Assembly (NCBI GenBank): GCA_013400975.1
Contig: WBMZ01011573.1
Location: 62,001-126,000, forward strand
DNA from: Atrichornis clamosus
Taxonomy: Eukaryota; Chordata; Aves; Passeriformes; Menuridae
Direction: 5' to 3'
DNA length: 64,000 bases
Shown here in pieces: positions 668-46,726 of the stretch (position 1 is its first letter; every line of letters starts with the position of its first letter). The notes beneath the pieces were generated by a model. That model was not told where the DNA came from, searched no databases, and saw only the letters and a program-made list of their open reading frames with translations. A program made the position numbers and the translations under genes.

Positions 668-758
668 CTCTCGAAGCTGCAGTCGAACTTTGCTAATGGC
701 TCTAATCCAATGGGCTCTTGCTGGAGGAAATGGTGGTGGCTCATTGTCACCCTGGTAG
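668..758 (-). CDS. UNC13B: UNC13B calmodulin-binding-type exon
   Basis: A 91-bp exon. The acceptor TTTCTTGCTTTCAAG gives phase 2 (AG|C, Ser), and the donor GAG|GTAGGA leaves phase 0. It encodes (S)YQGDNEPPPFPPARAHW and then IRAISKVRLQLRE. The RAHWIRAxxKVRLQL helix corresponds to the Munc13 calmodulin-binding site, where a Trp anchor (W464 in Munc13-1, W387 in ubMunc13-2) mediates calcium-dependent priming during short-term plasticity. The alternative acceptor seven bases downstream (CTACCAG) is rejected because it breaks phase. Exons for C1 and beyond follow outside the window. Confidence 0.94.
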
Positions 759-2684
759 CTTGAAAGCAAGAAACAGAAAATCACTACATGAAAAACACTT
801 ATCTGTAGCATTAAAGATTTGATTACAGGGGGCAATCACAGCTTCAGGTCTGGAAGCTCAAGGAACCAACAGGCTCCAGTCAATACAGCTCTGCATGTGC
901 TCTGGGAAGTGAGAGCCTAAAGCAGAGGTTTCCTTACACACAGGAACCGCCTTGGGAACTGATGAGCTGAAAGATACAACCTCTATAGAATCCAGACTCA
1001 GGAGGAAGATGATGTTTGTGAGAACATCAGGAATGCAGTCCACAACACCTGATAAAGCCAGTGCAACACACTGGTATCATAATTACACAGACAAAAAGTA
1101 AGGGAAGATTTTATATCCCTGTGCCTGTTGCAGGCCCCTTCTAACCACTGCCCCTTCCTACTCACCCTTCCTGCTACAAATTTACAGCCCCTCTTCAGTG
1201 GAAATACTGGCAACAGGGCCCAGCCATGTGTTTTCCCCATTCACTGAACCTTTGCCACTCCACTGCTTCACACAGCTTTTCAAGAGCACTTGTGCATCTG
1301 TCAGCAACCCTCCACCTCAGTGCCCCACATCTTGCACATCTTGCAACCCCTAGCCTCATGACACCTTGAACTTTTGGTGGCACTCCTCATTTTGTATGTT
1401 GCTGAGGTGTAAATCACTAAAACAAAACACCTCTTCCTGCCTGCAAATCACCCACCCCACAGTGCTGACAGTATAAAACAACCCCATGGCTGAGAGCAAC
1501 ACAATTCCGTGTTAGACATCTAACTAAGGTGCAGCTCTAAGGATCAACACTCAAAGCTCCACTCTGTGCACACTCCATGGAGACAGGAGAGCACTGCCAG
1601 AGAGTGGAGAGGAAGGGAGCCAGTGATGCAGGAGCATCCAAGTTAGATGCCTAAATTAGCCTGAAATAGACTATGTGAATAACCTTTCCTGTGAACAAAT
1701 ATAGGCCAGCCATTCTGGGACAAGACTCCTGCTGCTCTGTAAGGAAAAGAGGAAAGTGAATCAGAGTTTAAAAACAGTTTAACACTTCTTCTAGTCTTGT
1801 TTTCCTCTCTTCATCTCTAGTGTAAGGCTTGCCTACACATGAACTCCTGTAGTTAATTCTATCATACAAGCTCAGTGACACCAGCTGTACCCTTCAAAGG
1901 GTACAGACAGGCAGATCCATCTTCCCATGGATCTAACTGAACCAGATAAAAAACAATCCCTCATACTTATGAAAGTATTAACCATATATAGGGGCTGCAA
2001 TGACTTAGCTCAAGGAAAAATGTCACTCCCAAATTTAAGTAGTGAAATTTGAAATTCCTGTAAAACCTGTGCAAAACCTGGTACTCTACTCCCCCAAACT
2101 TTGATGAAATACTTTTGAAGGCTGTTTTCAATACTGTTGACAGCTTGGAAAACCAAAGTACAAGGACAGGAAAAGCTGCCAGAGTGAGTCAGAGCAACAT
2201 GCCTATTCATGCTGTAATTCTACAACCTACAACTACATAAACACTAACTCTAATGGTGGTAGTCTACTACACAAGAATGCAACTAGTGAAGCTCTAGCCA
2301 TGAAAACACATAGTTCTTGGTTGCTCATGCATAAACTTGAACCCACGTGATCAATGGAAGCAACTATTTTTGGGCCAGAGTAGGTTCATCAAACCAGAAA
2401 CAGAAAATACAGCAAATGTGCTCCAAGGCACTCGCTGGTGTTCCTCTTTACACACACAAAACCCATAGTTGTTCCTCTCTACATATATAGCAGACACAGC
2501 TTAAGCTTAGCCAATGTCCCATAAGCAACTGGTCCTGTACAACAGATGTTTTATATACCAGCAAAATCAACCAAGTTGTCAGAGAACGCTGCAAGAACAA
2601 TGTACATAATTTGCACTGGGAAATACCAAATAGAGGAATCCCCTCCAAACTACTTGAAAGTAACTAGGTAATAGCTTTACTTAC
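759..2684 (-). other. UNC13B: Intron between exons 2685-3011 and 668-758
   Basis: A 1.9-kb intron bounded by GTAAGT and TTTCAAG. Short open frames on both strands have no recognisable domains. No interspersed repeat was recognised. Confidence 0.8.
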
Positions 2685-3011
2685 CTCATTTGGGTACCTG
2701 CACCAATATCCTTGGGCTTCTCAAGTTCCAGGGGTAACTTAGCTGCAGAATGGTCTGCATGTTTTTCCTCAGTCTTGCAGACCTTCTCCTCCTCTCCTTT
2801 GCCGTGAGGCTCCTCTTGCTCCTTGAGCCATGCCTGACCATCCTTCTGGTAGCTGCCTGAACTGTGGTAGGAGTGATTCGACTGCCTTTCCTGGTGATCA
2901 TCTTCTTTCTCAGAGCCATGGGCACTTCCATGGGAATGTTCCAACTCGCTTAGGTGAGAGCTTTCCTGGCTGACATTGCAAGAGGAGCTGTATCTACTAC
3001 TGCCAGCAGGA
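2685..3011 (-). CDS. UNC13B: UNC13B linker exon after the giant exon
   Basis: A 327-bp exon with acceptor TTCTCTCACAG and donor ATGAG|GTAAGT, entering and leaving in phase 2. It encodes (S)[38 protein letters not shown], then a His/Ser-rich segment and a Lys/Glu-rich tail. It aligns with human Munc13-2 (SPTSSSRYGSSCNVSQGSSQLSEL, then a DDHRETDSIHSCHSSHS-like region). Joined to exon 8 it restores I-S-P exactly as in the human ubiquitous isoform. It is probably disordered, and the later part is poorly conserved. The Met at 2944 is internal, not a start. Confidence 0.93.
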
Positions 3012-4638
3012 CTGTGAGAGAATAAGAAAGTCCATCAGAAAAAAAAGTGGCTCAAAAAAACATAAAACAACCTGCACCTCTAGCAAACTGAACAGGACAC
3101 TAAATATTACTGAAAAGATATATTATGAAGTCGTATTTAACTATTATGCTCTTATGATGAATATCTAAATATAGACTTCTGAACCTAAAAAATTTGGTAG
3201 GCAGTAGAAATACTCGATACAGCCTACCAGCATACACACCACATATATTTATATATATATACACACACACACACATATATGCTCTCTCTCTATATATATC
3301 TATATACATTGGTCTTTCTTGCCCCAACTACTGCTTCACCTTACATCAGCTAGAAACTGCAGTGAAGATATTCTAATTATCAGGAATAAGAATGGAAACA
3401 CAAAAATTCAGAGTGAAAGTGTTTCTGTCTTCTGTAGTTTTGCTGCAGCTAGGGTCTTTTCCAGGATCCCCTTAAAGATGACTATTGTTAAAAAATAGAG
3501 TTAACGTTCATTTTATTCTTATATATTAAAAGTTTATCATAACATACACTGCAGTCAAGATTAAGACTGTCAAGACTTTCAACTTTCAACCTTTCACAAA
3601 AGTGGAGCAATTTTTCAAATGAGAGCCACGTGTCTCACTCTAGCAGAGCTTTCTCAATAATTTATTTTATATAAAAACCCCAGCATCACAAGGGTGTCAC
3701 CTCTGTGATTCAAGACACTGCTTTCAGGACTGAATTCCTACAGTCCTCAAACAACATACAGTAGATGGGAATTTCTCATGCAGTTAGGAAAACTATGGCC
3801 AAGAATTAAGCAGCACTCATGTTTTTCTCTTGCAGTCTTAGGAGAATTTGGAGCCAGGAAGTTCTGTGAGTGCAGAGTTGCAACTGGATGATCAAAGTAA
3901 CAAGTTTCACTTGTATTACACAGAAATATATAAGCTTAGTGAGTCTCTGGTTTGATTTTTGAAGACAATTGTAACTTAGCACATAAACAGGACTGAATAC
4001 AGACTCATGAAATACTGATATGTTCCTCTGGTGTTTTTCATAACTGCATGAAATAACCTTCACACAGATTTTAGGAAGCATTAGAATACCTTCACTGATA
4101 TCTCTGAAAAAGTTTTAGCATCTTCAATACTGTGAAATGAACTTAAGTAGTTCTATAATGCATCATCAGGAAGTTAAATTTTTCTCTAAAATTAACAGCC
4201 TTTACCTTTCATTTCGAAAACAAATTATTTCTTCCTACCAACACATTCTACCTACTGTTACTTTTTTGTTAGCAAATATAGTACTATGATCACTAAACAA
4301 AAAAGCAAAGTGAATTATACGCAGCAGAATTACCACAGAAAGACTATAACTTCTGAAAGGTTAATGAAACTAGCACTAAAAGCATCTCATTTAGTGGGAC
4401 ACATTATAAGAACATTGGAAATTCAATCACACAGAAAAAGAGTGGGAAAAGGTGAGAAAATGGTCTAAAGGCTTGTACATAACTAGTGACTGCAGTTTGC
4501 CATATCACCTGTGACAGCCATCAGTGATATCACAAACATTGAAAACAGATAGGGACTGGGACTGGGCTACAAACATCAGACACCAAGGCCATGATCTACT
4601 GCTGCAGTATTGCATTATAAATGGTCAAATCCCATTTA
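3012..4638 (-). other. UNC13B: Region between the giant exon and exon 2685-3011
   Basis: Intronic for the exon 8 to 2685-3011 splice; possibly 3' UTR or flank for a transcript ending in the giant exon. It contains the 3242-3307 microsatellite and several AATAAA-like hexamers. No clear additional coding exon was recognised, but a microexon here cannot be excluded. Confidence 0.7.
3242..3307. repeat. Compound (AT)n/(AC)n/(CT)n microsatellite
   Basis: Runs of TATATA, ACACACACAC, ATATAT, CTCTCTCT and TATATA follow directly on one another over about 66 bases. This is a typical polymorphic dinucleotide locus and lies about 230 bases upstream of an exon acceptor. Confidence 0.9.
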
Positions 4639-4640
4639 TT
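4635..4640 (-). promoter_or_regulatory. Candidate polyadenylation signal overlapping the giant-exon stop
   Basis: On the minus strand AATAAA begins on the second base of the TAA stop. A G/T-rich stretch that could act as a downstream element (positions 4567-4587) follows about 50 bases later. Such an arrangement would give a very short 3' UTR. AATAAA is common in this AT-rich DNA (another occurs near 3661-3666), so this is suggestive only. Confidence 0.3.
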
Positions 4641-7600
4641 ATGCCTCATTGGTAACTAGCCTTTTCTCATTCAGTTGTTCCACGCTATGCAGATCTGCAG
4701 CCAGTGTGTCAGGATGAAGCACTGCTCCATCAGGAGCAGAATCAAGCCCAGCTTCTCTCAGTTCAGGCTTGTCTGGCACATGCTCTTCTACCTGATCTTC
4801 CTTCTGTAGTTCACCTGAAATCACGTTCTGCTGATCTTCTGACTCTTTGTCAAGCTTCTCTCCCAGCTCTTTGTTGGATGTATCATCAACAGCACTTGCA
4901 CCAGATGGCTCTTCAGAAAGTTCATTGTCTACAGAGTCAGGCTGCTTTGAAGACAACTTTACTTCTATATTTGCATCAGTCAGTTGATCCGAGACTGCAG
5001 AATTTGAGTTTTCTTCTGAACTGACTGTTCCTAACACCTTGTCATCTGGTTTTGACAAAGCCTGTGGTGGTACATGTGGTTCCTTTTTGGCAGAGGTCTC
5101 CTTGATGTCTTTTTGCCAGGGAAAGGAGAAATCTAGCTTTTTCCCAAATACTGCTCCTGGGGTACTCTCTGGCTTACTCACCTTTTCTTCACTACCTCCT
5201 TCAAACAGGGATAAAGAGAGTTTCTTAAAACTGGACACAAGGCCCTCATCTGTTCCTGCTTTATTAGCAGAAGGTGGTTGCTGAGAGAAGAATGACCCAA
5301 ATGACTTTCCACTATCAGAAGACGACATAAAGCTGAATTTTGGCAAACTAGGTATGTTTGGTATTTCAAAGACAGTTTTACTACTGTTTGTATCAGGAGG
5401 GACATTATTAGTTTTACCCTGTTTCTTCAAGTCAGGTTTGGAAGCAATCCCTTCTGCAGGCACCTCATCAATTGCTAAACGTTTCTCCTGTTCGGCAGTT
5501 TGCTGTTCTACCTCGCTTGTCTTCTCTTCATTCAGCTGAGGCAGATGAGCACTGGGTTCATCAGCTGGAGCTGTGGGTTCTCTATCATTACTGCTGATCA
5601 AGTCCTGCTGATCAATACCAGCACTGGCCTGATCCCCTGTAACAACGGGCTCTGATTCAAGTATAGCACTCTCGTCTAACTGGGAAAGGTTTGTGTCTGC
5701 CCCATTAGCTTGGGCTTCCATTTCCAGTGCCAGTTTGTGAGTAGAACCAGTGTGAACTATGTCAGTGGCTGCCTTGTCAGTAGGAGCAGCTTCTTCCTCT
5801 GCTACAGCTGAAGACCCTACATCTGGTTGGAAAGTACCTCCATCAGTCTGGTCAGTGGCCTCGGCCTGCACTGTATCAACTGCACCACTGAGATCAGACT
5901 GGCATGGCTGAGAACCTACCACCTCAGAGGGCTGTGCTTCCCCACCCTGTTGCAGAACCTCGAGGGCTTCATTCTCACCAGAGATTCCTCTTTCTGGAGT
6001 GGTCCTCAAAGGTTCCTCTTTAGAGGTTTCCAAGCTCTTTTTCTCCTCAGTTTCTGTTTTCATTGGAGACTCTTTTGTGGGGTTCTCTTCTGTTGAAACA
6101 GGTAATACATCCTTCTTCACAGAGCTGGAGACATCTCTTTTGGACTCTCTGAGTGCAGCTGTGTATTCTGTCTCCCTAGACTCTTTTGCAGGAACAGACC
6201 CAGGGATATCTTTTACACTAGCGCTTTGAGGTTTAGGGGTGGATTTTGGAGGCATCTCTTTTGGAGACTCGTTTGGACCTTTGAAGATGCCAAATATATC
6301 ATTTGTGAAAGTTGATGCTGGGCCACTTGGGAGGGATGAGAAACCAAAGAAAGAGGAGCTCCTCTTCTGTGCAGGAGGAGGTGCAGTAGCTTGAGGTTGG
6401 GAAAAGAAACCAGATAACGTTTTAGGTGGTTTCATTTTTGTCATGAAACTTGAAAACATTTCAACTGAAGAATCCAAAACCGATTTATCACTCTCGGGTT
6501 CCTTTGGTTTGCTTTGCAAATTAGGTGTCTCTGGCATTTTAGGAGGAAAATGTGGATGTTGTGCTTGTTGTAATCTGTCAGTTTGTTGAGGTGTTTTATG
6601 TTCTGGCAACTCATTCTGTACACATACTTTTACAGAGACCACTTCACTTTTCATGTCACTCATACTATTTAAGTCATTTAGACCCTGGGAATCCATCTTA
6701 TCATCTGAGGCCACACTATAATCAACCTTTTCAGAAGTTTGCTCTTTGGAAGAATAAGGCTCTTCACCAGTATGAAATGCAACACTGTCCAATTTCTCTG
6801 TGTTACCCAAAGTACCATCTCCTGTCCCTAGGGATACACTCGGTTGGTCCTGAGAGCCCTCCTGCACACTGGGAGTCTGAAGGCAAGGACCAGAAGCAGG
6901 CAAATTGGTTACTGCAGTGTCCTCAGTCTGTGGAAGCTTTTCTAAGCCACTCTCTTCACTGGTCTGTGGAAGCTTTTCTAAGCCACTCTCTTCAGCTACT
7001 GCAGCAATACTTTCTACATTTCCCACTGCTGGCATTTCTGATTTGTTTTCTGGGATCATGACATTATCAGATGTTTGTTTGCCAGTCACTGCTGCAATAA
7101 TATCATCAACTTCCTTTTTATTGTCTGCATCTTGTGGCCTGGTAGAACTGCTGGGTTTGACACCAGAGTCAGTGGAAACACTTTGCTTCACATGTGGCTT
7201 AGAGCTCACTGTTTTAGCTGGTTTTGCATTACTCTCCTGTCTAGGAGCAGTTGGTGGCTTAGAGTTCACTGGTTTGGCTGGTTTTGTATTATTGTCCTGT
7301 CCTGGAGCAGTTTGCGGCTTTTCATCCAAAAATGATGTCAGATTGAAGAAGCTAAAACTAGTACTTCTTTGAGGTACACTCTTGTTGGGAGCTGGACTAC
7401 TGGAGAAGAAGGAGGGCAGATGAAAAAGCCCCTCTGTTTCTTGTTGCTTCCCACCAGGAGGAGCAGTAGCAGGTGCTGAAGCCTTTGGTTCATCGGATCC
7501 AGTGAAGAAGGAGAATATGCTCTTACTGGCTGGCTGTGATTTGGGAGCAGTGATGTCAGGAAAGCTGAACGGCAAACCGAAGCCCGATTCTTTGGGTGGC

Positions 7601-10600
7601 TGGTCTGGCTTTGGTTTTGTCCCATTAGCTGTGTCTCTGGAGCGATCTCCGTGTTGCTTTGGTGTACCCGTGGGTGTGCTGCTCTGCTGCACAGCTGGCT
7701 GGCTCAGCTGGCTTACTCTGGGACCTGCACCCATTGGCTTCTGTGAAACGTTTCCAGAAGGCATTTTTTTACTCTCAGGAGACTCCTCCACAGCTATTTC
7801 GCTTTGCTGTTCCACTTGCACCCTGGGGCTAGGAGAGACATGCTTGTCCATGCCTTCTGTTGTCAGCCTTTCCTTAGGGGTAGAGGACAGACATGGCATA
7901 CTGGCACTCTGAAGACCTCCAGACTTCTCAGGTTTTTGTCTTGGCTCAGCCACAGTTCTGCTGTTGGTTTTTGGCAGAGTTGTAGTACTTGGGGTTGGTT
8001 GAGACGACACAGGCTCCACTTTGAAGAGATCTCCGAGGGATCCAAATAATGATGAGATGCCGGACGTTTCCTTCTGTTCTGGCTGTTTCATCTCTTCTGG
8101 TTTATGACTTTGACTTTTCTCCAAGTCTGGTGATGGCTGTGGTGCTTTGCTTACTTGTGTTTTAAAGAAATCGAAAAATCCAGAAGCCTGAGTTTTGTTG
8201 GCAGTTGAGCTTGCGGGAGAATCTTCTCCAAGACTGAATAATTTCAGAGCACTTTTAAATAACGTCTCCTCAGGCTCAGGGGCTGGTTGGCTCTGATTTG
8301 GCTGTGACTGACTAGGTTCATTAATGCTTGCATGCCTTTCAAGACGCCTGGAAGCTGGTGCTGCTTTAACAGGTCTCTCTTCTCGTATGGGCCTGCCATC
8401 TGCAGCAGTTTGGCCCAGTTGAGAAGGAGATCTTGTTAACCCAGGCTTTTTAACATGGATGTTTTCAGCCTGATGTAATTCCGGCTTTTCATTTCTAGCA
8501 GCCTCCAAATTAAGTTCTGACGAAGTATTTCTTCTTGGTTCTGACGTAACAGGAAACTTCTGCCCTGCCTGTTCTTCATCTAATTTTCTGTTTGGTGTAA
8601 GTGATAAAACATCCGTTTTATTTTCAGATGGTATCGACCGTGTGTCTGTTCTCTTCAAGGCAGAATCTTCTGATGTCTCAGAGCCAAGGCTTGTAGACTT
8701 TCCAATTAGCCCACCCAAAGCAGAAAATAAAGAGCTAACTTTGTTCACTGGTGTTTTCCTATCTTCCTCAGTCTTTTTTGCCTCTGTTACTCTTTCAGTA
8801 GATGCTGCAGTTTCTTCAGCCTTAGTAGTAGACTGGAACAGTTGGAATCCAAAGAATCCTGATGACCCACTCCCAGAAGTTGTCACAGGGACAGTCTTAT
8901 CAACTTCCTTACCCAATGATTTATTGAAACCCGCTCTGGAATGTGTTCTGAGATCAAGGGTTAATGGAGGCTCCTCTGAATGATTCAGGGTTTCCTTCTC
9001 AGGCCTAAAATCTACTTTGAGTTTTTGAAGTTTATAACCTGAGAAGTCTAATGGCTGCTCTCTCTGATAATAAATAGACTCCTCAAACATTTGTGAAAAA
9101 GTTTCCAAATTCATGTTCATTAGCTGGTCACTCCTCTGCAAAGCTACTGACAAATCCAGGGGTTTATTTGTTGCATAATCATCTAGAGACTCTTCTTCAG
9201 CAAACCAAAACAGCTCATCTTCACTGCCAAGAGGGACTTTAAAACCACAAACAGCAATTGTGTTGTCTTCTAGCACAGCTCTTGGAATGGAATCCATCTG
9301 GAAATTGTAATCCCAGCAGTCCAGGTAGGAGTAAGTTTCAGGAGCACACACATAGACATACTGTCCGGTGGGATCAGTGAGCAGTGAATACACATACTGG
9401 CTATCACTGTACATGTAGTATCCACAGTCACCATCCTCTGATGGCCACCATATGCCCTGCTCAAGCATCATTATCCACTCCTGATACTCCCGGCTATAGG
9501 ATGAGTACATCAAGCCCTCATCCATGCTTAAAGTCTCCTGGTCAATGAGCGTCCACATTGTTCCATCACAGCCAGAGGAGTAGCTTAAATCCATGGGCAA
9601 CTCTTCGAATGAGTAACTGCCATCTCTTTCAAAGGGTGGGAAGTTACTGTAACTTTCACTCAGAGAATTAGCAGTCCATGCATCATTTTCTTCTAAACAA
9701 ATGTCTTGAAACATTAACTGGTCAAATGACTCATATGACATCGCACTTAAATCTAAACTCTGCCCATCAAAATTGGCATTAGTCTGCCAATCCATCACAT
9801 TTGCATTCCCATCCTTTTTACAGAGATTCACTACTACATCATTTTCAGGCCAGTCCAAGAACTGAGGCGGCAGAACAGAGTTCTGGTTTAACACATAGTA
9901 AACCGGTACAGCTATTCCATGACTGTCAGCCAGTTCCCCCACTTCATATTCCCATTCAAAGCTAGAATGGCTTCTTGTTTCTTGATAAGCTGAGTACTGC
10001 TCTGTAGTGTTATAGCTTTTATTAGTCAAATTGAGAAATTCATTTGATCCTTTGTTTAAAGGAGTTGGAAGAACTCTAGATTCTGCATCCTGGTGAGGAA
10101 TATGCCTACTATTTAAAGGCTTTCCAGATAAGTCCTGTACCTTGTCTTGCAGATTTAGGGCCTCAGGGAGCACAGGACGCCCACAGTGGGGAACACGGGG
10201 CTCAGCTGTTTTATTTACTCTTGCACTGGACAAATGGTCAGTAGTGGAAGATTCCACTGTTTTCACAGTATCCTGTTTCTCCTTTGGTTTGGGCAGGAGA
10301 TTTTTTAAGAAGCTGGAAGCTTCCTGCTTCTCTACAGTGCTGCTTTGACTGTCAGAAGACATTCCTGAATTGCAGGGTTTTGTCTCTGAGCTAGAATCCT
10401 CACCTCTATCAAAAAGCTTCATGAAGCCCAGAGAATTTGTTTTTGCCTTCTCTTGCTTACATTCAGACAAGTTTTCACTTGAGGCAAACCTAAATAAGCC
10501 AGAAAATAATCCAGGAGAAGTGTTTTTCTGGCTATCTCCCTCACTTTTAGCAGTTGAGTCTTGACTATTGGCTGTGTTTTCATTGGAAGAAATGCGAAGA

Positions 10601-13399
10601 AACCCAGAAAGAAAACCTGGTGTGTGCTTCTTGTGTGTATCAACTCCACTTGGAGCTTCTGGGCCTCTGGCTGAAGAGGTGGATTCAACTGAGCCCTTGC
10701 TTAAGTCTGCTGGATTTACTCCTTCCTTCATCAGCCGTCCTTCTACATTTCTAGATTCTTCCTGAGTACTCTTAGTCCTCTGCAGCTCTTCTTCAGCCTT
10801 AAAGAGAGCAGAGGCACTCTTCCAGCGTTTTTCCCTGTTTACTTGGACACTAGATAGGTTTTCTTTATTCACGCTTTTCCTTTGTAAAAATTCCTCCTTA
10901 TGGTTTAATAAATTTGGAACCGAGCTAGATTTAAACGAAATGGCATTTCCTGACTTGCTGTTTCTGTCTTCAGGCAAAGAACTGCCACTAGAACCCTGAT
11001 GACTTTTTTGATCCTGTGTAGGTGCTAGATTTTCTGCAGAAGAAAATCTAAATAATGATGAAATAAAGCCTGCCTTCTCATTCCTCTGTTCCGGCTTTGC
11101 TGAAGAACCCAGCCCACTGAAAAAAGGAAGTTTTCCAGTGAAAGGAAATGAGTGCTCTTCCTTTGAAGAACTATTTTGCCTTATATCTTCCTCAGATTTA
11201 TGGCCTTTAAAATATTCAGAAGGACTTTCTTTCGGTCCTTGTTCAGCAGAAGGAAGCAACAATTGACTGAAAGACTTTTTGAGTGGGCTGAAAAAACTTT
11301 CAGATGCAGTCCCCTGATCTTGAGGCTGTGAATTAGGTTCCACATTACCTCTGTTTTGCTTGTTTGCCAGTCCATGGCCTGCTCTGTGTTGATCCTCTGA
11401 GTGATTTGCCGGAGGCTGTTCCCTGGCAGTGGGAGCACCCTCTTTCAAATTGGCATCTGGCTGATTTGTAACAGGATGCAAAACTGGTTGCTTCTGTGGC
11501 ACATCTTGCTGCTTGGGAGCCAAGAGACCATCAAGATTGGCTTTTAGACTGAAGGAACTGACTGAGTTTGTGAGCCTGCCAAAGATGGAAGACACAGAAG
11601 TGCTACTTGCGTTTACCTCTGCCTCACTTCTAGTCTCACTTTTCTGCGCCTCTGGAACAATGCTGCTGGTCCTGGTTGACATCTGTCCAGATGGCGTTTC
11701 GCTCCTTTTTGACTCCTCAACTTTCACAGCCTGGCTGTCCTCCTTGGTGTGCTCCTCTTTTGTGACTTCTTGTTTTGGTGCTTCCTTCTCAGAGAAGATC
11801 TTTAAAGGATTAAACATGCCTAGAACGGAATTCACAACTGAATGCTGGTTCTGCTGGCTGTCGGCAGGAGTTCCTTGTGATTGCTGGGGATGATGAGGTG
11901 TGGAAGCCTTAAGGTCTATCTCAGTGGTTTCTGGCTTGTTGGAGTTTATGTTCTGGGCTCGTTTATCACCACTCACCTGGGATGGTAGCAAAGACTGAAT
12001 GGAGAACTTGGTGTCAGCTTTATTATCTGCTGCCCCTCCAGAAGAAGAACCTTCACTTTTAGACTTACTAGTAAATACATTCAAGATTCCACCTTCTGAT
12101 GAGTTTTTGTTTTCTGTATTCTCTGGAGTGGAAGAAACAAGTTTTTCAACAGAGGCTGTGAGCTGCTTTGTGCTTGACCCCACCTTTTCCGTGAAAGAGC
12201 TGAACAGGGAATTCATTGTATTTTTCACACCTGACAAGTCTGGAAGAGATTCAGATTTGCCCTTGGTAGTCTCCTCTGCAGCAAGATGTTTGGTCTGTTC
12301 AGACTTTTTAGCTTCTACTGAATTATCAGCATTATCCTGCTTTAGTGGCACACTCTCAACATTTTTTTTTGTTTCTGGCAATGTACCAAATTTGCTGATT
12401 TCTTCCTCCTTTTCAGCCAAGTATTCTGAGACTGACTCTACCAGACACTGAAGTTCATCCATCGTGTCTATGTACTCCTCACTGGGTTCTTCAACAGGAG
12501 ACAGTGTTAAGTCTTGCACTGGATGACCATGCTTGCTCTCTTTAGTTTTATGCTTTTTATCAGAGCTAGCCTTTAACTGGGAGCCCACATTTGCAGGGCA
12601 ATTAGCAGTTATGTTTCTCAAATGGCTGATGTCAGAATCACACCATGTTTTTGAAAGTGTAGCCAGTTCCTCCATCTCATCATCTGAAACAGGTGAGTAC
12701 TGGAACTCATCAGAAGCGCTGCTGTCAAATTCCTCAAGGATATCCACAGGCAAAAAAGTGTTCTCTAGCATCCCCATGTGTTTCATGTCCTCACTGTTAC
12801 TCAGCTGAAGTGAGTCCTCATGGTTCATTCCCTGTTTGTTGGGCAGTTTTCCACTTTTAACCATTAACCCGTTTTTGTATGGACGCAAGATCGGATAAGC
12901 AGGCAACTGTTCCTTACTTTCAGAGTTACTGGTGTATTTTCCACTTCTGTCATATACGGGGAAATCATCAATGGGTTCAGAATTAGTTGCCACACCATTG
13001 AAATAAACTGCCTTCTCCCCAGCAAACTGCAGACCTCCATTACTTTGCAGGCTTATTTGTTCTCTGTCTTCAAAATTGTATTGCAGCTTCTTTTTCCTTC
13101 TTCTATCGATTGTAGCATATTCCTGAGGATATCTAGGGACATCTACTGACCCTGACACCAGACACACATTTTGGCAGCACCTTGATCTTTCACAGTGATT
13201 GAAATTTTCTCTTTTTGAGAGAGTTTGCATCTTTTTTATGTTTTTCTCATGCCAACTTCTAGTTTTATGAGTTTTTTCTAAGAATTCCTCTATTAGCAGT
13301 TTTCCTAGCTCTTCATAGTTACTCTCCTGTTCCTCTTCTCCATCTTCAGTGTTAAATGGAATGATCCTGACTCTTTCATTTCTAGCTAGAGGTCCTTGT
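4639..13399 (-). CDS. UNC13B: Giant alternative UNC13B exon, 2,919 codons plus stop
   Basis: An uninterrupted reading frame of about 8.76 kb. The acceptor (long pyrimidine run, then CATCTTAG) lies just above 13399, and the first base completes an AGA codon with the exon 8 donor, so it continues the UNC13B frame as I-R-QGPLARNERVRIIPFN. Open-frame sequence between 13400 and 13572 is intronic. Content (numbering Q=1): a Cys cluster and basic RRRKKK patch near residues 65-105; long Ser/Lys/Glu/Pro/Gln-rich, probably disordered stretches; over 20 short Phe/Leu clusters; a Tyr/Trp-rich acidic island around residues 1130-1415; PxDLS-like motifs at residues 1214, 1268, 1413 and 1449; and acidic C-terminal sequence ending RLVTNEA-stop. 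Size and openness make chance impossible. I recall long UNC13B isoforms in vertebrate annotation but could not verify homology. Its 3' end is unsettled: the stop may be terminal, or a donor may exist that I missed. Confidence 0.88.
6922..6993 (-). repeat. Two-copy 36-bp in-frame tandem repeat in the giant exon
   Basis: Two adjacent near-identical 36-base units encode EESGLEKLPQTS and EESGLEKLPQTE. They differ in only a few bases, so the duplication is recent. The length is a multiple of three, so the frame is kept. Confidence 0.92.
7201..7320 (-). repeat. Two-copy 60-bp in-frame tandem repeat in the giant exon
   Basis: Two adjacent 60-base units encode related 20-residue blocks containing TAPGQDNNTKPAKPVNSK and TAPRQESNAKPAKTVSSK. 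The copies have diverged more than the 36-bp pair, indicating an older duplication. The frame is kept. Confidence 0.9.
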
Positions 13400-16300
13400 C
13401 TAAGATGAGAAATAAAGGGAGTGGGAGGGAAAGGAAGAGAGGCAGCGAAAAAAAACAGGAAGGGAAAAATAACAGTTTTTTTAAAAGCTATAGAAAGGAC
13501 AGAAAAAATAGTAATGGAAAAACATGCATTAAATAAACGAAAATTAAAATCAGAAACATTCAGAAATAACAAAATTGAAAACCTGCCAATCTACCACCAT
13601 TACATTTCAATCAAATAGTCAAAAAAAGCAGCATGGGTTGTGAGATTCCACCAGTTATGTCTGCACAAAAATTAGAAATGCGTTTCTGAGGGAGAACAGC
13701 TTTTTGTGATCAAGTGAGGGCACACAGCTTAGGCTGTACCAGTACTCTGCTGTAGCTTTTTTAGGCATGCTGAAAAGAAGTCACTTATTGCAGTAACAGG
13801 ACTACTTTGAGATACAGTGCCCACACCCACGTTCCACTATGCTGTGCCTGCATTTCGGTCACTCTAGGCTGCAGACTTTGTTTCAGCAGTATTCATAATG
13901 CACACAGGGATTCTGTGTCTCCCAGGGGTGGCTACAGAGCAGACGTTTCATCTAAAGACTTGGGAGTCACTGGACTTCAAGCAAGTGGGGGCAGGGGACA
14001 AATGCAAACCATGCACACCAGCAACATGAGGTGATTCAGCTACTCTATCATTCCTCTTTGCTGGAAGAGTTCTCTCTAATGGCCTCGAGGTGCCTCTATC
14101 AACACAAGGTTAAGATTCTCAGAGCTGTTACTGGATCAGAAGGCAAAACAAAACAGGGGCGCTGGATATGAGCCCATCATAAGCCTCAGATGCCTTCAGG
14201 ATCCGTACTTCCCATTCATAATGCATCTACACAGATCCAGCAGTTTGTACTTGTCCATTGTTGGAGAATGGATTAAAGCTGTGAAACAGTCTGATGCTTC
14301 CTAGAAACCTAAGTAAATGACCCTTGGGATTTTGGTATTAATTCCTAGCCCTTGCTTTAGTGCTGCATTTCCACCAGTATCAGCTAACTTAACACTAATT
14401 GGAAAGATGCTCATTACTTTAAATGAGTCCTGTTACACACAGTTTAGAACACTTACTACACTTCTTGCTCACAATTTTAAACCATTAACTGAAATAATTT
14501 TCTTTCAAAAGCTAACAGAATTTTAAAGATTCCCAGGGCCACCATTGTTACTGGATCAAGCCCTTCCAAAACTCAGTTGAAGGCAACGGGAGCTACATGA
14601 ATGCCTGAAGAGCCATTATCCGTAAATGCTGAATCAAAAATTGACTAATTTAGGCATCAAGGAAATTACTTTTCTTTCTAATTGAGTTCCTTCCCCTGTA
14701 TGTGTTTCCCCTGCTCTTCCACAAAGCATCCCTTTTACTAGAAATAAAGCAATTATGAGGAATCCAACATATGAGAGGAGAAAAAGACATCAGCCCAGAA
14801 TTTAACTACTACAGATCTGAAAAAGAGCTGAGGCAAGCAGCGAGTATCAGCTGGAAGGCACCACAGGACCACTTCACAGCAGCAACAGTGTGGAGACAGG
14901 CACACAGGTGCAGAAAGGGCAACCCACCTTTCTGACAGATCTAGAGAGACTCAGATGTGGGCCCTAGGTCAGTATGGCCACTACCAGTGGAATCTATGTT
15001 ATCACACCACCTTGGGAGCAAATAGAGCAAGAGTAGGGAGACATGGAGGACAAACAGTTAAAGAAAATGAGCATTGCAAAGAAAAGGTAGTGCTTAAACA
15101 AAAAAAATCAGAGGGGAGGATGTCTGCTATTCTGAAGCCAAACTTGCTGTTGGCAGCAAAACACACTCCAAGGACAAATAAGAATATTGTTTGTCATCCT
15201 TAGGAAAGGGTGGAAGAAAATTCATGTAGTTCTATCAAAGGAATATGATCACATCTAAGAGCTAATAAAGAGAATCAGAATTTCTCATCAAATACTGTAG
15301 GAAAAGAACCCAGGGATTAAAACAGACAGTTTCAACTGAGGGATTTTGGCACTGACAACAACTTTTTGCCCAGTTCAAGACATGTTCTGGCAGGTTCTTG
15401 TATGGTTACTCTGGATCTGCCCAAGATAGCCTCCTACAAGCCACCATTCCTCAGCAACCACTAACTGCAGTCTGCCAGGAACACTGATTTCATCAGGTAA
15501 CTGCCTGGTCCACAGCACTGAGAGCTGCTAGGACCAAAAATCAAACAAAATTTGGTTTTGCCATACTCAGCTACAACTTTGTTTTGAAAATATTTAAGAT
15601 CTACCCACTGCTTCTTTTCAGCCAGCTTGTTAGAAATACCTTTCTGGTAAGTAAGAGAATCCCACGTAGCTTCTTTGGAAAGCTTATTTGCATATTTTAA
15701 GTTTTAAGATTAAAAAAGCAGCAAAAAATCTTGTTGGCCATGTGGAAAATGCACATGGGAACAGGAATGCTCAGATCACCATCTAGGACTCACATTTCTG
15801 GACTGAAAGTAATTTTAGACCATAGCACACTACAAAGCTCATAGTTTTAAAGCAAATTTTATCAGTGCTGATCCTTTCATATCAATATCTTCAGGAAATC
15901 AGAAAAAAAAATAGAAATATATTCCAGCTTGGTATTCTCTAACAATTCAAACTAGAAGTGTTTCTTTGGAAGGTCTGACAAAGACATTTATCCATTAGAT
16001 ACAGATAGAAGTTTATATACATGCTGACTGCAAGCAAGGTGAGCCATGAAAAACTACTTGTATTGTCAACACCACCCCAAGAAGTCCCACAACAGCAAAA
16101 ATACACAGCCACCATTGACTTTCCCTGGCTGGGGGCCCAACAGCACTGTTCAGTTCAGTTCTCCCACAAAGAAAAAGCCTCAGCTCATCATCAGACTCTC
16201 AGTTAGGTCTTCAGCAATTTTATCACTGCAAACCAGCAGCACAGACTCACTTGGGAAAGGAAATAACTTTCTTATATAATACATTTAATGAACTAGGAAT

Positions 16301-17393
16301 AGAGCACTAGGAATGACACATCACGCTGCAGTAAATGTATTTTGTTGGCACATTTGCCTCTATTCTTGAAACCTCAATAACAGTAATAACATCAAATGTT
16401 ACCATTAAACTTCACCCTCTACCATTAATGACCATACACCAAGAAGAGCAAAATTAGCCTCAGTCACAGACCCCTGAGGACAACTGATTTCAGGTTCAGG
16501 CTTCAGCAAACAAGAATGTTCTCACCACAGCAGATAAGGTAGAACAAATCAGTTATAAAACATCTAAAACTCTGCGCCTCTAACTGTGATAATGCTTAAG
16601 TAACTGCCTGTTCCTTCCACACCAAAGGCAGAAGCAGCAGCAGCATGACCTATTCTGCACACCCACTCTTACCAAGCTGACCAGCACTATCCAAAATCTT
16701 CCTACACAACCACCTCTAGTTCACACACATTGAGCCTGGTAAGTTAATGCTATAATGCTCAATACTTAAGTTAAAAACAGTTGCGAAACTACTGATTTAT
16801 GGTAAAAAAAAAATAATTTAGAGCAAGTAAGCTATCTCTCATAGAGCTCAAAGTACAACAGAGAGAAAAGAGAAAGCACACCGTTCAACAGTCTTATATG
16901 ATAACAGGAACAAAAGAAAAAAACCCAACAACAACAACTAATCAGTTACACACTTTCTTCTTGAATACATTGTTTTGGCAAAGCTAATGGAACTGGAGCT
17001 AATCCAGAACAAAAAATAAATCTGCACCAAGAAAGAAGCTCCCAGTAGGATAGCTCTGCTGGACTGTGCTTCACTGGCTTGGGAGGCACACCTTTGCAAT
17101 GGTACCAGAGCAACCAACTACCCCCTACCGTGGCCTTCAAAGGGCATGGGGAATGACCTCAAAGTTGATCATATCTTTCAAAGGTAACTCCCTGAACTGC
17201 TGGATCTGGTGTAACACATAGCCTCCTGTGTTTTTCCTGGTTCACAGCGGAACCCCAGTGTTAACAACACAAATAACACCTACCTATCAGAAGACTTTTA
17301 GAGCCCTTGACCTGCCCTCCCCTGCCAGCACAACAACCGTGGTCTGCCACGGAAAAACAACGGGAAAAGGAGCGCTACCCATGAGACACCCAC
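13400..17393 (-). other. UNC13B: Intron upstream of the giant exon
   Basis: A 4.0-kb intron from the exon 8 donor GTGGGT to the giant-exon acceptor. The last roughly 170 bases before the acceptor happen to be open in frame, but their translation is a pyrimidine-tract hydrophobic run (Phe/Leu/Ile) and is not taken as coding. No recognised repeat. Confidence 0.75.
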
Positions 17394-17616
17394 CTGATGG
17401 CCACGTGCTCCCGGTAATCCAGATCGTAATTCTGCAGGGAGTCAGCACAGGAGTCCCGCAGGACCCCTTGCTGCTGCAGGCGGGACGGGCCCGTGAACTG
17501 GTGCACGGAGGCGTTGGGCTGTGCCGTGGTGTGGTACGGAGGGGGGATGCTGCTGCTGGTCTCGCTGCGGTAGTCACTGTCCCGGTCATCCACGGCACTG
17601 TCACCATCCTCGAAGG
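17394..17616 (-). CDS. UNC13B: UNC13B exon 8 (linker with Ser/Tyr-rich segment; alternative splice hub)
   Basis: A 223-bp exon with acceptor GTCTCCTAG and donor ATCAG|GTGGGT, entering in phase 1 and leaving in phase 2. It encodes (S)[20 protein letters not shown], then a [17 protein letters not shown] stretch, and ends [16 protein letters not shown]. All of this aligns with human Munc13-2 ([28 protein letters not shown]...SYDLDYPERRAI). The phase-2 end can join either the giant exon (AG|A, Arg) or exon 2685-3011 (AG|T, Ser), so this donor is where the two isoforms diverge. Confidence 0.96.
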
Positions 17617-20600
17617 CTAGGAGACAAAACCAGTTAAGGGCACAGCTCTCTGAGGTTGCCTCGCTGGGACAGTGAAGCCCATTTTTGGAAGAATGACAGC
17701 AAACCACTATTTCTGCTGTGGTTGTATCTCCATGTGGGAGCTGGCTATAACCTCCAGTTCTCTAAAGTGTGCACCACGGAACTGCAATCATTGGAAACAA
17801 ACCCTCCTTTCCCTCTTCCTATCATAGGAGTTTAACTCTCTTTAGTCATTACTAATTAGCAGAGTAACACAGTTTTATTTAAAACAAATTTTAAAACCCC
17901 ACAACAAACCAACAACACCAACAAAAAACCCCAGCATCTAAAATTCCAGGTACTTTTCTGCTGCCAAAATGAACCTTTAGATGTTGGAAATGGAAAAAAA
18001 AAACCAAATCCAAAACCATTTCTTTATGGAAAGGAGCTTTTTCTGAAAACTTTTCAATCTTTACGCTGCAATAATGTCTTTTCTTCTCAGCATTCGTAAC
18101 CAGAACTTTCATGTTCTAGACAGTTTTTTCCGTGCCTTTTTTTCTTCTTTTTTTTGTAAAAGTATCAGTTTAAGTTAAGAGAAATGAATGTAGAGTACTC
18201 AGCAGGAAAATCAGAAGAACTGGGGGAGCAGTTGTGCTTATAAACAATTATACTAGTTCTTATGGGGGAAAATTGCTACATTTACCACATACAGGTAAAT
18301 TAGCTTAAGTATAGGACTTAACACTAATAATAACTATCACAAAGGAAAAAGCTCCTTTCCAGTGAGTCCCTCTCCCTGCTGAAACACTTTTGCTTCTTAA
18401 CCCTTCAGGAAAGGAAAATGCCAAGTTATAGTGAGGAAAGGTATCAAAAATATGGCTGTGTATGGTTGTACAGGATGTATTATCTTTGCAAGCTTAAAGT
18501 GAAATACACACACACACCACAGGGCAGTGGAGTGCACCCTTAACATGCTTGAAACAAAAGAAAATAAGGATCAGCCATTATTCATTCTCTACGCCATGGA
18601 AAGTCTGTCTAAAAAGGACAATCAAATTAAAACCCTCTCTGGTGAGTTATCCAATGGTGTGTGTCCTACACAGTCATCGACCATGAGAATGAACAATAAA
18701 AGTGAAAGTACTTTTTAAAGTGCCAGATCCTTAAAATCTGCAGCATTTAAGTGCTGAAATTCCAAGCAGATGGAATGCAGCATCAGGGAACACCTTTTTC
18801 TTCCACTGGTGCTTCCCATACCTCTAATTCCATTTACATTTTTTTAATCTGAGGTAAAATTTGACCTTGGTGATCTTTTCAGTTCCTTCACAATACAGTA
18901 AAATTAGTGCCCTGAAGTGTATGGAAGAGGAGAAAAGAAGAGCAGCCGAAAACATGTCTGCAAAATACGGGTCACTAGAAAAAGCCCGGCTCTACACTCT
19001 TGAGTAGAACCAATTCAATTTGATTGTCCACACCAAAAATGCTTTTTAGCAGTTTAAAGGCTGCAGAGTTCTTGTCAGTCTCTAGTCAACTGAATAGAAA
19101 TGAATAGCAATCATATGCTGCTTTATTCAGCTTTATTAAAAGCACAGTGTCCATCAATTTTATCACAGTTCAGTGCTTAGGAAAAGCATTCAAGATCTAC
19201 TACACAGAAATGATTTCATATGCCAAAGTGCCAAACCCCTCTGAGGAGCACCAAACTTTCAGCCTGTGGAGCAAGGGCCGATCTATTTGTCAATCACGAG
19301 GCTCACACTGTTCTCAGAAGAACAACCACCTATTACTCAGCTGAGCAATGTCATTGTCATTGCTCAACACTTGAGCCATTACCATCTAATGAACAATAAT
19401 TACTTCTATTGGGACAGAAACACTCTGTTCCAAAGAGTCTTTTATCGCCTCACTTTGCTGCTCAACTAATTTCTTTGTCCCATCAGATGTAACTGTCATT
19501 TAAGGTAAAGCCCAAGTAACTCTGGCGATGGAAAGTTCTTCAGCTGTGGCTGCATAATCATCACAGCACCTGTAGAGGCTGAAGGCAGCCTAACTGAGAT
19601 ACAGGTTTGGGATCTAGTAAAAGCCACCAGACCAACAGTTTCTGGGATAAACAATTTAGTTAACGTCAAAAGTATTACAAAAATTCCAAACCAGTAGTAC
19701 AATTGTCCGGGTAAGAAAAACACAGATTACAGTGACTCACTGAGCATGCAAAGACTTACATAGTAATGATTATCAGGAAGCAGGACACTGCTTCTATAGG
19801 TCAGCAACTCTGCCCAACTGACAGGCTCAGAAAATTCCAAGTGAGTCAGACTGTTGCAGAAGCACTATCTGGATTTGTTAACTAGGCATCGCATCTCACC
19901 TCTGCACTATCATATGAAAATTTCCCACACAAACCACAGTATCTCTAAGCAACATCCAAAAATAGCAGATTAGCTTAAATGTTAATCAAACATTTAGAGC
20001 ATATATGTTTATAAAAGCTGACACCAGAATTTCTCAGAGTTCTTACCACTTTTTAGCATGAGGACGTCTCTTTGAGGTCATGACACAAAATGCCTCCCTG
20101 AGGCATGTTTAAAGGATGCAAGGCTCCATGAGGAAGGAACGTGTTTTTTCTCTGATGTATGCCCCCTGAACCCAACAGCATCCATAGATGTTAATACCAG
20201 ACAGAAATCCTCAACTGACTCATAAATAAGAGCCAACTCGAAAAACTCTTATTCATGCTGAACTGCAACTTCCCTATGAGCAATCTCACTTTATCTAACA
20301 GAAGTGCTCTCAAATGAAGACATTGCTCAGCCTGATCAAAAGCATCAAAACCTTGCCCATATGTGGCTTATAGCACACATTTCCTTTGCAAAAAATTATT
20401 TTGTGAAATGCCAACATATAGCAATGATCCCATTCATTAACATACTTGACACAAATTTTAATGAAGCAAGAGACTGACAAGAGCTTACAGAATTGGCTTT
20501 GGGGATGCAATGCCCCTTCAAATGGAGGCATTACAGCACATGTTTCGGCAAAATAGCCCTCACAACACACATGGTGTGATAAATTCAAGTACTATTTTCT

Positions 20601-34300: not shown

Positions 34301-35414
34301 CAAAGCATCCCTGGTTTATTCTTTCCATGCACCTTTTTCTTTTTTTTTTCAAAAAGGGAGGACACATTCAGTGTTACCTAGAATGAAAGTATTGCTGGAA
34401 TACTTTGATATAGAGCTGTACATGTTCCAGCTACACAGGACAATCAGATTTCCTAGGCAATTGGTTCACGTCCACAGTTGGTTGAAGATACTTTTAAGAT
34501 AACATAACAATAATACAAAGAAATTACTTCTACTCAAAAAAGGTAAACAGTAATTAGCATTTCCTAATGTTATCAGTTTTGAGGAGATCCTATAATCAGC
34601 CTAATGGATAAACAGCCTGCAATGTGTAATATGCACGTCTTACAGGATTTGAAGTAGAGGATAAAAGATTTGTTTAAATTATGAGACTTGAATTTTATTA
34701 ATGATGTTGCCATAAGTAGATAAGACATTCACAAGAGACATCACTGAGCTTTCATCTATTATACACTAAAAGCAATGTTTCAGAAATCTAATTTTGCAGA
34801 CCATCAAATACAGCATATCCTATGTTATATTTCCATCCACGTTTTCAGAAGCACAAAAAATGCAAGACAAGATAAGCCGAAATTAGTAAAAGTATTTTTT
34901 CCATCCATCAACGCAGCATTGAAAAGTAATATTGAAGAAATTAGACATCAAGTACACAAACCTCTGGTACATTTTAAAAGGCTACCAGCAGTACTTGTCT
35001 CCATCTATTTTCTGCCTTTTAAAATTCCGTTAAACAGTAATAAAAACGATAGTTAACACAGGACTGTAAAGAGAACACAGCCTGACTTAGTCACATGAAA
35101 AAACACAGCATTTTCCTACTGCCATAAATATTACAAGGGCCTGACAATCTAGGTGACTTTGAACACATTTTCTGGTCCTATTGCACACAAGGACAACAGC
35201 AGGGCAAAGACTCAATGCCTGATTTCACTTCCCCGTATCAGAAGCTTTAGAGAAACATTTTGAGGAGCACAGCTTTTCATGACTGCGTAGAGATTTAAGT
35301 ACTTCTATCAAGAAAATATTGTTCAGACATACCATCACTTGATAACTAACCATAGAAGGAAATGAAGTACACTGAAAGAGGAAAAAATATTGAGAAGAAA
35401 TAAGTCTAACTTAC

Positions 35415-35472
35415 AACACTGGGAGGCAGCACTGGGCAATGGTTTCTTCTGGACTTCCTCCTGAAAGGAATA
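35415..35472 (-). CDS. UNC13B: UNC13B exon 7 (short linker exon)
   Basis: A 58-bp exon, entering in phase 0 after CTCTTTTAG and leaving in phase 1 at T|GTAAGT. It encodes YSFQEEVQKKPLPSAASQC, matching human YSSQEESQRKPLPTAAAQC. A second AG lies 15 bases inside the exon (CTTTCAG); using it would remove YSFQ-E and still keep phase, but the longer form fits the human protein better. It begins the probably unstructured region between C2A and the calmodulin site. Confidence 0.93.
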
Positions 35473-38515: not shown

Positions 38516-38586
38516 CTCATCATCTCCCAGTGAATTTATTTGTTCTAATTTTCTGGTCCAGTATCTGGCCTCTTCTTCAGGGATAT
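38516..38586 (-). CDS. UNC13B: UNC13B exon 6 ([10 protein letters not shown] segment)
   Basis: A 71-bp exon with acceptor TGACGTAG and donor GAG|GTAAAT, entering in phase 1 and leaving in phase 0. It encodes (D)[20 protein letters not shown] followed by DDE. This is the conserved helix directly after the C2A domain in Munc13 proteins ([15 protein letters not shown]). It has no initiator Met and was found by reading the conserved peptide directly. Confidence 0.96.
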
Positions 38587-44500: not shown

Positions 44501-46726
44501 GGCAAGGAGACAGAGCCTAATGCACCCTGCAGAGTCCTTCTCTAACCCAGAGGTGATGGCAGGAGACACTGAGCCATGGTGTGAGGGGAAGCACCACTGG
44601 AGAAAGTGGTACAGGTAGATGCCACTATGTGGAGGAGTACCACACACCTGTAGTGCCTGCTGCCTTTCAGCCTCCCTCTGACCTTGCCGTGGCACCTCAG
44701 GCTGAAAATGGAGATCAAAGCAAAAACTGCAGCACTCTTCAAGGGAAGAGCAGCCGAAACCTTGAAAAAGCTAACTCCTGCACTCGTTTTTTCCTGGACA
44801 TTATGAAACCCTGGGCAGGCGGACAACTTTTCACACCCTAAAACAAAAACCCTTCAACACAGCAGTGTGGAATCCCTGTTATTTCAGTATTTGGCATGGC
44901 AGGCAAAGAAATAAGCAATAGATGTGCTTTAAACGATCAGTTGCGCTAAAAACAGAAGAATCACAAAAATCTTTCTATTTATATAGTGTTCTGCATGAAA
45001 TCCTATTTCTCCAAATGTAAAAATTTAAAATAGTAGTACAAATCAGCCCAAAAGAAATAAAAATTCCTTTGAGCAGTAGGAAGAAAACACACTATTACCT
45101 GAAATATTTTGGTTTTTTTAAATCCGTACGCTGTTGACACATTTACAGGAAGTCTGTTTTGTTATACTTTTAAAAAAAAACCCTCAAAATGCAACGCAGT
45201 TCAAAACATGAATTGTAGAAGAAAGCAAATTCTCTTTAGGACACTCTCTGAATACAAAGGGAGACATCAAAACTTCATTCTCTTTTAAAGCAGTAACACT
45301 TTACAAGCAACTGTTTCAGAATAAACTTAGATGAGAAGGTAGTGGCTACAAGCCTTGCCTTCATCTGTGTATGGTTTTTCTCTCCCTCCCAGAAGCCTCA
45401 ACACTTGCCCCAAAGAACCAAGATTCCCCTGTGAAGTGGAACAGGCTTGTGCCTCCTCCTGCATAACAAGCAATTTCAGCAATGAACTTCCCACTGACAG
45501 GGCGACAGCAGCACCAGGACATCTCCATGGGGAAGAGGGATGGCTTCTGACCAACATCAGACAGCTGTCAGGACAGCTGAGGTGTCAGGTACATTATCAC
45601 CTTTGCACACTGGACTGTAGTCAAAGAGCAGTGCTCACCCTCCAGTACCACCATCCAGGGGACTGTGCACTCAGAACACTGCACTCAGAGCACAAAACAC
45701 AACTTGTATTGATGGTCCTGCTGCCAGGCCAAGGCCTGCATCCTGCCCTGCACCAGGAAGGGGGGTATGACACTCAGAGATGTTCTAGCTTCTTCCCACA
45801 ACAGATGGCCAATCCTGACAGGTGCTGGCCAAACGCCGGTGCCTGCACAAATGCTCTACCCCTGCTTAGTACAAATCGCTCACACTGACAGGGGCTTTGC
45901 AGCAGAAAAGATGCAACAGGCAGAGGGGGATAGATGAGCCTTGCAATGACAGGCAACTTTGACATACTTCAGTGCCCAGTGCATGAAACAAAAACAGCAC
46001 AAACTCCAAAAGTATCATCTCTGTTCTTGATTCCAAGCATCAGTAACAGCTAAAAACAGGAGCTATGTAAGTCTGGGGTGCATTCTGGCAAAGGTCTTAT
46101 TTTTGGGGTTTATTTCCTTTGGGGTTTGTTCTTGTCTGCTTAAGTAAAGTAAAATCTTAAAATTACATACAACTTCACCTGAGATCAGTTTGCTCCAATT
46201 AGCTGCTTTTCCATGTTCTGTATTTTTCAACCACAGCTAATTGCCAGAAAGGCAGTTCTTACAACATCAAGTTATTTATATACTCTGCTAATGATAATGT
46301 GCAGGAGCACCAAGCATTAATGTTTCACTTACTGAACTGCACACATCTAAGAGGGCTATGTGCATTTACCACAGAACAGCTCTAACAACTCACTTGAACT
46401 CTTCTAGAGACAAATTTGTCTAGATACAGAAAAGCAAATGCTCCCTGTTCAGGAAAAAAATGTGTGACTACACAATCCTGAAATGGTATTAGAAGAAAAA
46501 ACAGCTGCTAGTCTAAACATTCCAACACCCAGGGACTTTCAAATATTCCATATTTATTTGGATCATGTTAAAAAGAAGCCAAATAAAAAATGAATACCCG
46601 CAACTTGACATCCACGGAACTATACTGAGTGAACTGAGAATGAACACAACTCGATTGTAAAACTCAAGTTGTTCCCACCTTCTCTCCCTTGTCAGCACCC
46701 TGGGTAAGCTATGGCAATGCACTCAC
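38587..46726 (-). other. UNC13B: Intron 5
   Basis: An 8.1-kb intron from GTGAGT to GACGTAG. It contains a few chance open frames, the longest being 177 codons on the plus strand at 45355-45888, which lacks any recognisable domain and is not called. No CR1 or other repeat was recognised. Confidence 0.78.

Follow-up and report, generated by a model that had tools for sequence, protein, structure and literature searches.

A conserved cluster of PxDLS-like motifs in a giant exon of avian UNC13B (Munc13-2) as a candidate docking site for CtBP-family proteins

Introduction

The PxDLS motif is regarded as an established ligand of CtBP proteins, a premise on which the sequence-only reading of this locus relied and which is supported by the precedents reported for EVI1 (PLDLS), E2F7 (PIDLS) and RAI2 (ALDLS). 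EVI1 is described as binding CTBP2 through its PLDLS motif, while a PxDLS-like PFDLT in the same protein fails to bind; PLDLS is uncommon, at 41 human proteins in the same account, whose main text does not name UNC13B (PMC11095456). E2F7 is reported to bind CtBP1/2 via PIDLS (PMC4063256). RAI2 carries two ALDLS motifs 21 residues apart, each of which is reported to bind at about 5 uM with its central LDL paired to a CtBP strand, and together the tandem links CtBP tetramers into filaments (PMC11187106).

PxDLS-like motifs have also been described in presynaptic proteins of ribbon synapses. Piccolino has been reported to bind RIBEYE via multiple PxDLS-like motifs (PMC6539712) and Bassoon is said to use PxDLS motifs for RIBEYE too (PMC11242772), and a RIBEYE-binding peptide covering a putative PxDLS-like motif is described as having no acute effect on release (PMC7699581). 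Piccolino has further been proposed to tether vesicles to ribbons via an ALPS motif (PMC13394108). Among the Munc13 proteins, ubMunc13-2 is reported as the sole one at photoreceptor synapses, and retinal ribbon synapses are said to use Munc13-2 (PMC7660176). Our literature search returned no report, in the accessible text of open-licence papers, that Munc13-2 (UNC13B) binds either CtBP or RIBEYE, and a CtBP/RIBEYE-type segment in Munc13-2 appears not to be discussed in that literature. Here, we describe such a candidate segment.

Results

The window, which is the whole 64-kb stretch of DNA analysed, contains an open frame of 2,983 codons (4639-13590, minus strand) whose translation encloses the giant exon of UNC13B. 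The exon itself spans 8,739 bases (4661-13399 (-)), from the acceptor TTAG/ACAAGG to the GC-type donor AAAAG/GCTAGT. An avian UNC13B model, P0008 (4552 aa, with Pfam C2, C1 and MUN domains), gave a collinear tblastn match over the window and placed the giant exon between the C2A exons and two downstream exons. On the upstream side, the neighboring exon was matched at 17393-17638 (-) and the C2A-bearing N-terminus at 35398-35472, 38516-38602, 46728-46853, 47801-47917 and 51737-51841 (-). On the downstream side, the next exon lies at 2687-3011 (-), with acceptor TCTCACAG/TCC, and a further one at 668-760 (-), and the 4661/3011 junction is in frame as it is in P0008. The giant exon is part of a Munc13-2 (UNC13B) isoform and is spliced between the C2A and the C1/MUN exons. 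In a protein search with the motif-bearing segment, the closest named proteins among the matches listed were avian, with up to 95% identity.

The GC-type 5' splice site AAAAG/GCTAGT at the end of the giant exon (4654-4668 (-)) joins 3003-3019 (-) in frame. Read-through of this donor (4639-4660 (-)) appends RLVTNEA followed by a stop codon, which is overlapped by AATAAA, and the resulting product consists of C2A plus the giant exon, without C1, C2B and MUN. The RLVTNEA terminus was present in 7 of the 13 bird rows inspected, with a one-letter variant in another 2. The GC donor seems to be conserved, since read-through proteins from turtle, lizard, marsupial, rodent, amphibian, sturgeon and eel share K-R-[PL]-V at the exon boundary. 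The known ubMunc13-2 and bMunc13-2 forms appear to be without the giant exon. A bMunc13-2 peptide (rat residues 703-742 onward, as given in PMC7017353) found no convincing match within the 64-kb window, so the bMunc13-2 N-terminal region is encoded elsewhere. One of the introns holds an open frame of 181 codons on the opposite strand (45343-45888 (+)), for which a Pfam search up to E 1 gave no match.

Four PxDLS-like motifs had been read from this exon, and translation of 4639-13590 (-) confirmed the position of each exactly: SLDLS (motif 1; 9745-9759 (-), residues 1278-1282 of the translation), PMDLS (motif 2; 9583-9597 (-), residues 1332-1336), PLDLS (motif 3; 9148-9162 (-), residues 1477-1481) and PLDFS (motif 4; 9040-9054 (-), residues 1513-1517). 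Motifs 2 and 3 are exact PxDLS words, while motif 1 has S in place of P and motif 4 has F in place of L. Motifs 3 and 4 are separated by 31 residues and motifs 2 and 3 by 140, the latter interval holding an orphan aromatic module, EYQEWIMMLEQGIWWPSEDGDCGYYMYSDSQYVYSLLTDPTGQYVYVC (9346-9489 (-)).

A protein of some 2,900 residues rich in S, P, D and L could yield PxDLS-like words by chance, an explanation we regard as highly improbable for the cluster as a whole. Against 3000 composition shuffles, which gave a mean of only 0.11 strict words per exon, the giant exon contains three; its best 240-residue span holds two strict words (P 0.001) or four relaxed ones ([PSAV]xDL[ST] or PxDF[ST]), a number reached in 0 of the 3000 shuffles. 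The cluster exceeds chance on these counts. Because both patterns were picked after the motifs had been seen, conservation outweighs the shuffle test. The chance explanation does draw on motif 1, which is not conserved, and on the third strict word of the exon, PADLS (10699-10713 (-)); taken here as a control, PADLS was kept in 0 of 8 aligned bird rows, one of which has AADLS. Motifs 2 to 4 are too widely conserved for this explanation to be likely, motif 3 being retained all the way from teleosts to mammals and the other two ranging between non-teleost ray-finned fishes and mammals. The explanation still holds for motif 1 and PADLS.

Conservation was followed in an ortholog set of 193 proteins, of which 120 of the 121 matches above threshold came from a first search and a further 73 from the best 120 of 298 matches to the sturgeon ortholog. 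Motifs were counted in a single alignment of 108 named, clade-labelled proteins of this set, one per species, with unnamed rows and additional rows of the same species excluded; primates make up 13 of its 25 placentals. Motif 3 is the most widely kept, with P-x-D-L in 107 of the 108 species, from teleosts to mammals. Its exact form, PLDLS, is present in all birds (22/22), turtles (3/3), squamates (13/13), marsupials (6/6) and non-teleost ray-finned fishes (4/4), as well as in 22 of 25 placentals (PLDLT, PIDLS and PVDLS in the other three) and 27 of 30 teleosts (PFDLS, PLDLT and PLNLS in the rest). Amphibians have the exact word in 1 of 5 species and PLDL followed by a gap at S in the other 4.

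Motif 2 reads as PxDLS in every amniote (69/69) and non-teleost ray-finned fish (4/4) and in 4 of 5 amphibians, the fifth having LMDLS. It is degraded in the 25 teleosts, of 30, whose letters were inspected, and eel and arowana have AMDLS and VMDLS close to its site. Motif 4 is kept as PLDFS in 73 of 74 tetrapods and in 2 of 4 non-teleost ray-finned fishes; in teleosts it is degraded too, the inspected rows being mixed and P mostly replaced by A or G. Motif 1 is SLDLS in 19 of 22 birds and SIDLS in the three turtles, squamates are mixed, no such word was found in the mammal rows inspected and all 34 fishes have a gap. Judged by this alignment, SLDLS belongs mainly to birds and should not be counted in the docking set.

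The motif cores were also compared with their flanks and ranked by percentile among the 5-residue windows of the region, using the 108 proteins with clades weighted equally. Mean information was 4.25 bits in the core of motif 3 vs 2.60 in the flank (100th percentile), 3.97 vs 3.04 for motif 4 (98th percentile) and 3.69 vs 2.30 for motif 2 (90th percentile), while the core of motif 1 ranked at the 44th percentile of regional conservation. The expectation that the motifs are conserved in amniotes, with cores above flanks, was therefore borne out for motifs 2, 3 and 4 and failed for SLDLS. Motif density was compared in the window and 63 chosen proteins, which left 62 rows after P0019 and P0051 were dropped for want of an anchor. 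Three clades had no strict motif outside the segment; in the five that had any, the density of strict motifs inside it exceeded that of the remaining exon 16- to 156-fold.

Other sites of this kind are found in fishes. Besides motif 3, all 13 ray-finned rows inspected have an ALNLS/VLNLS-like site 104-128 residues ahead of the module, as well as an AFDLT/AVDLS/VIDLS-like site 148-162 residues past it; at about the same place as the latter, where ray-finned fishes have AFDLT, AVDLS or VIDLS, the window has TLDLR (8947-8961 (-)). Words of the relaxed pattern number 3 to 6 per inspected row in ray-finned fishes, 2 or 3 in amniotes (PLDFS uncounted) and 1 or 2 in amphibians (n=3). These counts are suggestive of sites that may turn over while several usually persist, as expected for multivalent short motifs; they are only suggestive because the relaxed pattern is our own and amphibians fit it poorly.

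Conservation extends to the sequence between the motifs. The orphan module is the best conserved part of the giant exon from teleosts to birds, and of the five 100-residue windows with the highest conservation in the exon, four fall at residues 1314-1563, with 50-56% identity to six non-sauropsid orthologs vs an exon mean of 28%. The module is predicted to contain a helix and strands, with pLDDT 87-89 at residues 11-50 of an AlphaFold2 model of 9181-9510 (31 sequences), and Pfam, PDB-sequence and fold searches with it gave no usable match. Between motifs 3 and 4 lies a second conserved stretch, DQLMNMNLETFSQMFEESIYY (9067-9129 (-)), mostly predicted as helix, with a block pLDDT of 48-60. In a larger model (18 sequences, mean pLDDT 49), motif 2 has a pLDDT of about 29, motif 3, whose final three residues (model 159-161) are not below 50 and include one called strand, is flanked by blocks of pLDDT 39 and 48, and motif 4 sits in a block of pLDDT 58 between helix and strand. 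The low confidence at motifs 2 and 3 would suit flexible stretches, short of proving that they are accessible.

Since the inter-motif sequence is also conserved, selection may act on a folded unit, and the motifs could be kept as parts of a unit, folded or bound to a partner other than CtBP, with the aromatic module and the motif 3-4 helix at its center. We hold this to be unlikely, although it has real points in its favor: the module and the helix are themselves highly conserved, the module core is confidently modeled, motif 4 stands just ahead of a predicted strand and motif 3 includes the strand residue mentioned above. However, low-confidence coil makes up motif 2 and most of what surrounds motif 3, the cores are more conserved than their flanks, and the retained P, D, L and S, with M, I, V or L in second position, fit the PLDLS, PIDLS and ALDLS ligands.

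Outside the segment, a home-made ALPS filter marked six ALPS-like stretches in the exon: the amphipathic QKETSGISSLFGSLGDLF (8023-8076 (-)), PVNKVSSLFSALGGLIGK (8698-8751 (-)), STSVSSIFGRLTNSVSSF (11551-11604 (-)), DLSGVKNTMNSLFSSFTE (12187-12240 (-)), SGPASTFTNDIFGIFKGP (6274-6327 (-)) and GLVSSFKKLSLSLFEGGS (5191-5244 (-)). Shuffled exons gave a mean of 1.5 such windows and 1 of 300 reached six; fourteen orthologs had 3 to 11 windows vs shuffle means of 0.72 to 3.05. Piccolino's own peptide is picked out by this filter. The filter is nonetheless a weak one, since it also picks 2 windows in 1367 residues of a folded Munc13 control, little below the density in the exon (6 in 2920 residues). 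F-rich repeats of the form S/G-F-F-x-x-F/L also run across the exon (4661-13399 (-)), several of them ALPS-like. The repeat pattern has 16 matches at 11 places vs 1.1 in shuffles, and a repeat is present in 7 of the 10 non-segment windows among the 14 best conserved windows inspected.

Discussion

Taken on its sequence, the segment is a fairly probable multivalent docking site for CtBP-family proteins in a giant-exon isoform of Munc13-2. Such an isoform would run from a RIM-binding C2A domain through about 2,900 mostly low-complexity residues to C1, C2B, MUN and C2C, or to an early stop. Motif 3, joined outside teleosts by motif 2, is the part that we infer to dock CtBP1, CtBP2 or RIBEYE: PLDLS and PMDLS would each bind as an extended strand within the PxDLS cleft, which in RIBEYE is that of the CtBP2-derived B-domain. 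PLDFS would be a weaker or accessory site that assists docking or serves another role. As CtBP is tetrameric and RIBEYE self-assembling, two or three sites of micromolar affinity would give avidity and possibly bridge oligomers, and the isoform would then act at synapses, ribbons included where it is expressed. Some observations weigh against docking, in that PLDFS is off consensus, motifs 2 and 4 decay in teleosts and 4 of 5 amphibians are without the S of motif 3. The failure of PFDLT in EVI1 shows that a PxDLS-like site need not be a binder, and the RIBEYE-binding peptide without acute effect on release, like the seeming absence of the giant exon from the ubMunc13-2 and bMunc13-2 forms studied so far, counts on the same side. 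PxDLS has been reported as a ligand of BMAL1/CLOCK too (PMC4231743), and the motifs might in principle serve such another reader; nuclear clock factors would be unlikely partners for a presynaptic protein, and we consider this extremely improbable.

A further question is whether docking would take place at ribbons. The isoform might instead bind CtBP1 or CtBP2 away from ribbons, for example on transport carriers or at conventional synapses, much as Bassoon and Piccolo are described as doing with CtBP1. Such genuine docking, with no specificity for ribbons, is a serious possibility to which we give somewhat less than an even chance. The docking domain is common to CtBP1 and CtBP2, which are described as handled alike in the case of RAI2 (PMC11187106), and a presynaptic role of its own is reported for CtBP1 (PMC7034063). 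Retinal Munc13-2, moreover, has been placed at the active zone and its loss described as mild (PMC11536687, PMC13394108, PMC7660176, PMC6539712): it is assigned to the arciform density with Bassoon and RIM2 (PMC11536687), the retinal form is described as ubMunc13-2 in a study that counts it among the active-zone components and reports that deletion of Piccolino leaves the other proteins of ribbon and active zone in place (PMC13394108), and loss of Munc13-2 is said to leave docked vesicle numbers unperturbed and to lower the b-wave by about 30% (PMC6539712, PMC11536687). On the other side, the ribbons of photoreceptors with ubMunc13-2 are reported to hold RIBEYE and CtBP1 as well (PMC11536687, PMC13394108).

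The giant-exon isoform might be recruited to photoreceptor ribbons. As this form would share the C2A start of ubMunc13-2, an antibody to the C2A end might detect both. Recruitment to hair-cell ribbons, which the sequence-only reading had included, is unlikely, given the report that inner hair cells function in the absence of Munc13 isoforms (PMC7660176), with the caveat raised in a review that the hair-cell Munc13 mutants were studied in culture (PMC7699581).

The ALPS-like stretches and F-rich repeats support, without proving, a more elaborate role, in which giant-exon Munc13-2 would combine a priming factor with a tether of the Piccolino kind, using C2A for RIM, several of the ALPS-like stretches for vesicle capture and two or three PxDLS motifs for anchoring to RIBEYE/CtBP. 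We consider this rather doubtful. If true, the tether would couple a ribbon or CtBP scaffold, the vesicle and the priming machinery in a single molecule, and the read-through form without MUN would act as a tether alone, much as Piccolino relates to Piccolo.

The docking reading touches on the layout of the release machinery on ribbons and on what leads photoreceptors to retain a Munc13 that can be lost with mild effects. A conserved candidate segment for CtBP/RIBEYE docking offers a testable physical link and points to the isoform to seek, since cDNAs and antibodies built on forms of 1.6-2.0 thousand residues may have missed it.

Among the described systems, the giant exon of UNC13B resembles in outline Piccolino and Bassoon, which are very large presynaptic scaffolds with PxDLS-like motifs for the RIBEYE B-domain. 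Piccolino, found at ribbons, is a truncated splice form of Piccolo whose ALPS motif is reported to bind vesicle-like liposomes (PMC13394108), and the UNC13B exon offers a parallel in its PxDLS motifs, its ALPS-like stretches and its read-through form with an early stop. The RIBEYE motifs of Piccolino are taken here from their published description (PMC6539712, PMC11242772), and the likeness carries no claim of homology. Unlike Piccolino and Bassoon, the UNC13B exon is tied to Munc13 domains, namely C2A and optionally C1, C2B and MUN. Within the Munc13-2 family of forms, the ELKS1-binding N-terminal region of bMunc13-2 is likewise isoform-specific and is reported to help recruitment to particular synapses (PMC5830537).

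Among CtBP ligands, the likeness to RAI2 lies in two CtBP-type motifs joined by a short linker, of 21 residues in RAI2 and 31 between motifs 3 and 4. RAI2, however, has an identical ALDLS pair in random coil and acts in nuclear foci, whereas in UNC13B the second motif is the non-canonical PLDFS and a conserved helix is predicted in the linker. With EVI1, E2F7 and the other CtBP ligands that carry a single PxDLS, the PLDLS or PIDLS core is shared letter for letter, but those proteins are transcription factors, while UNC13B would present several motifs on an isoform of a presynaptic priming factor.
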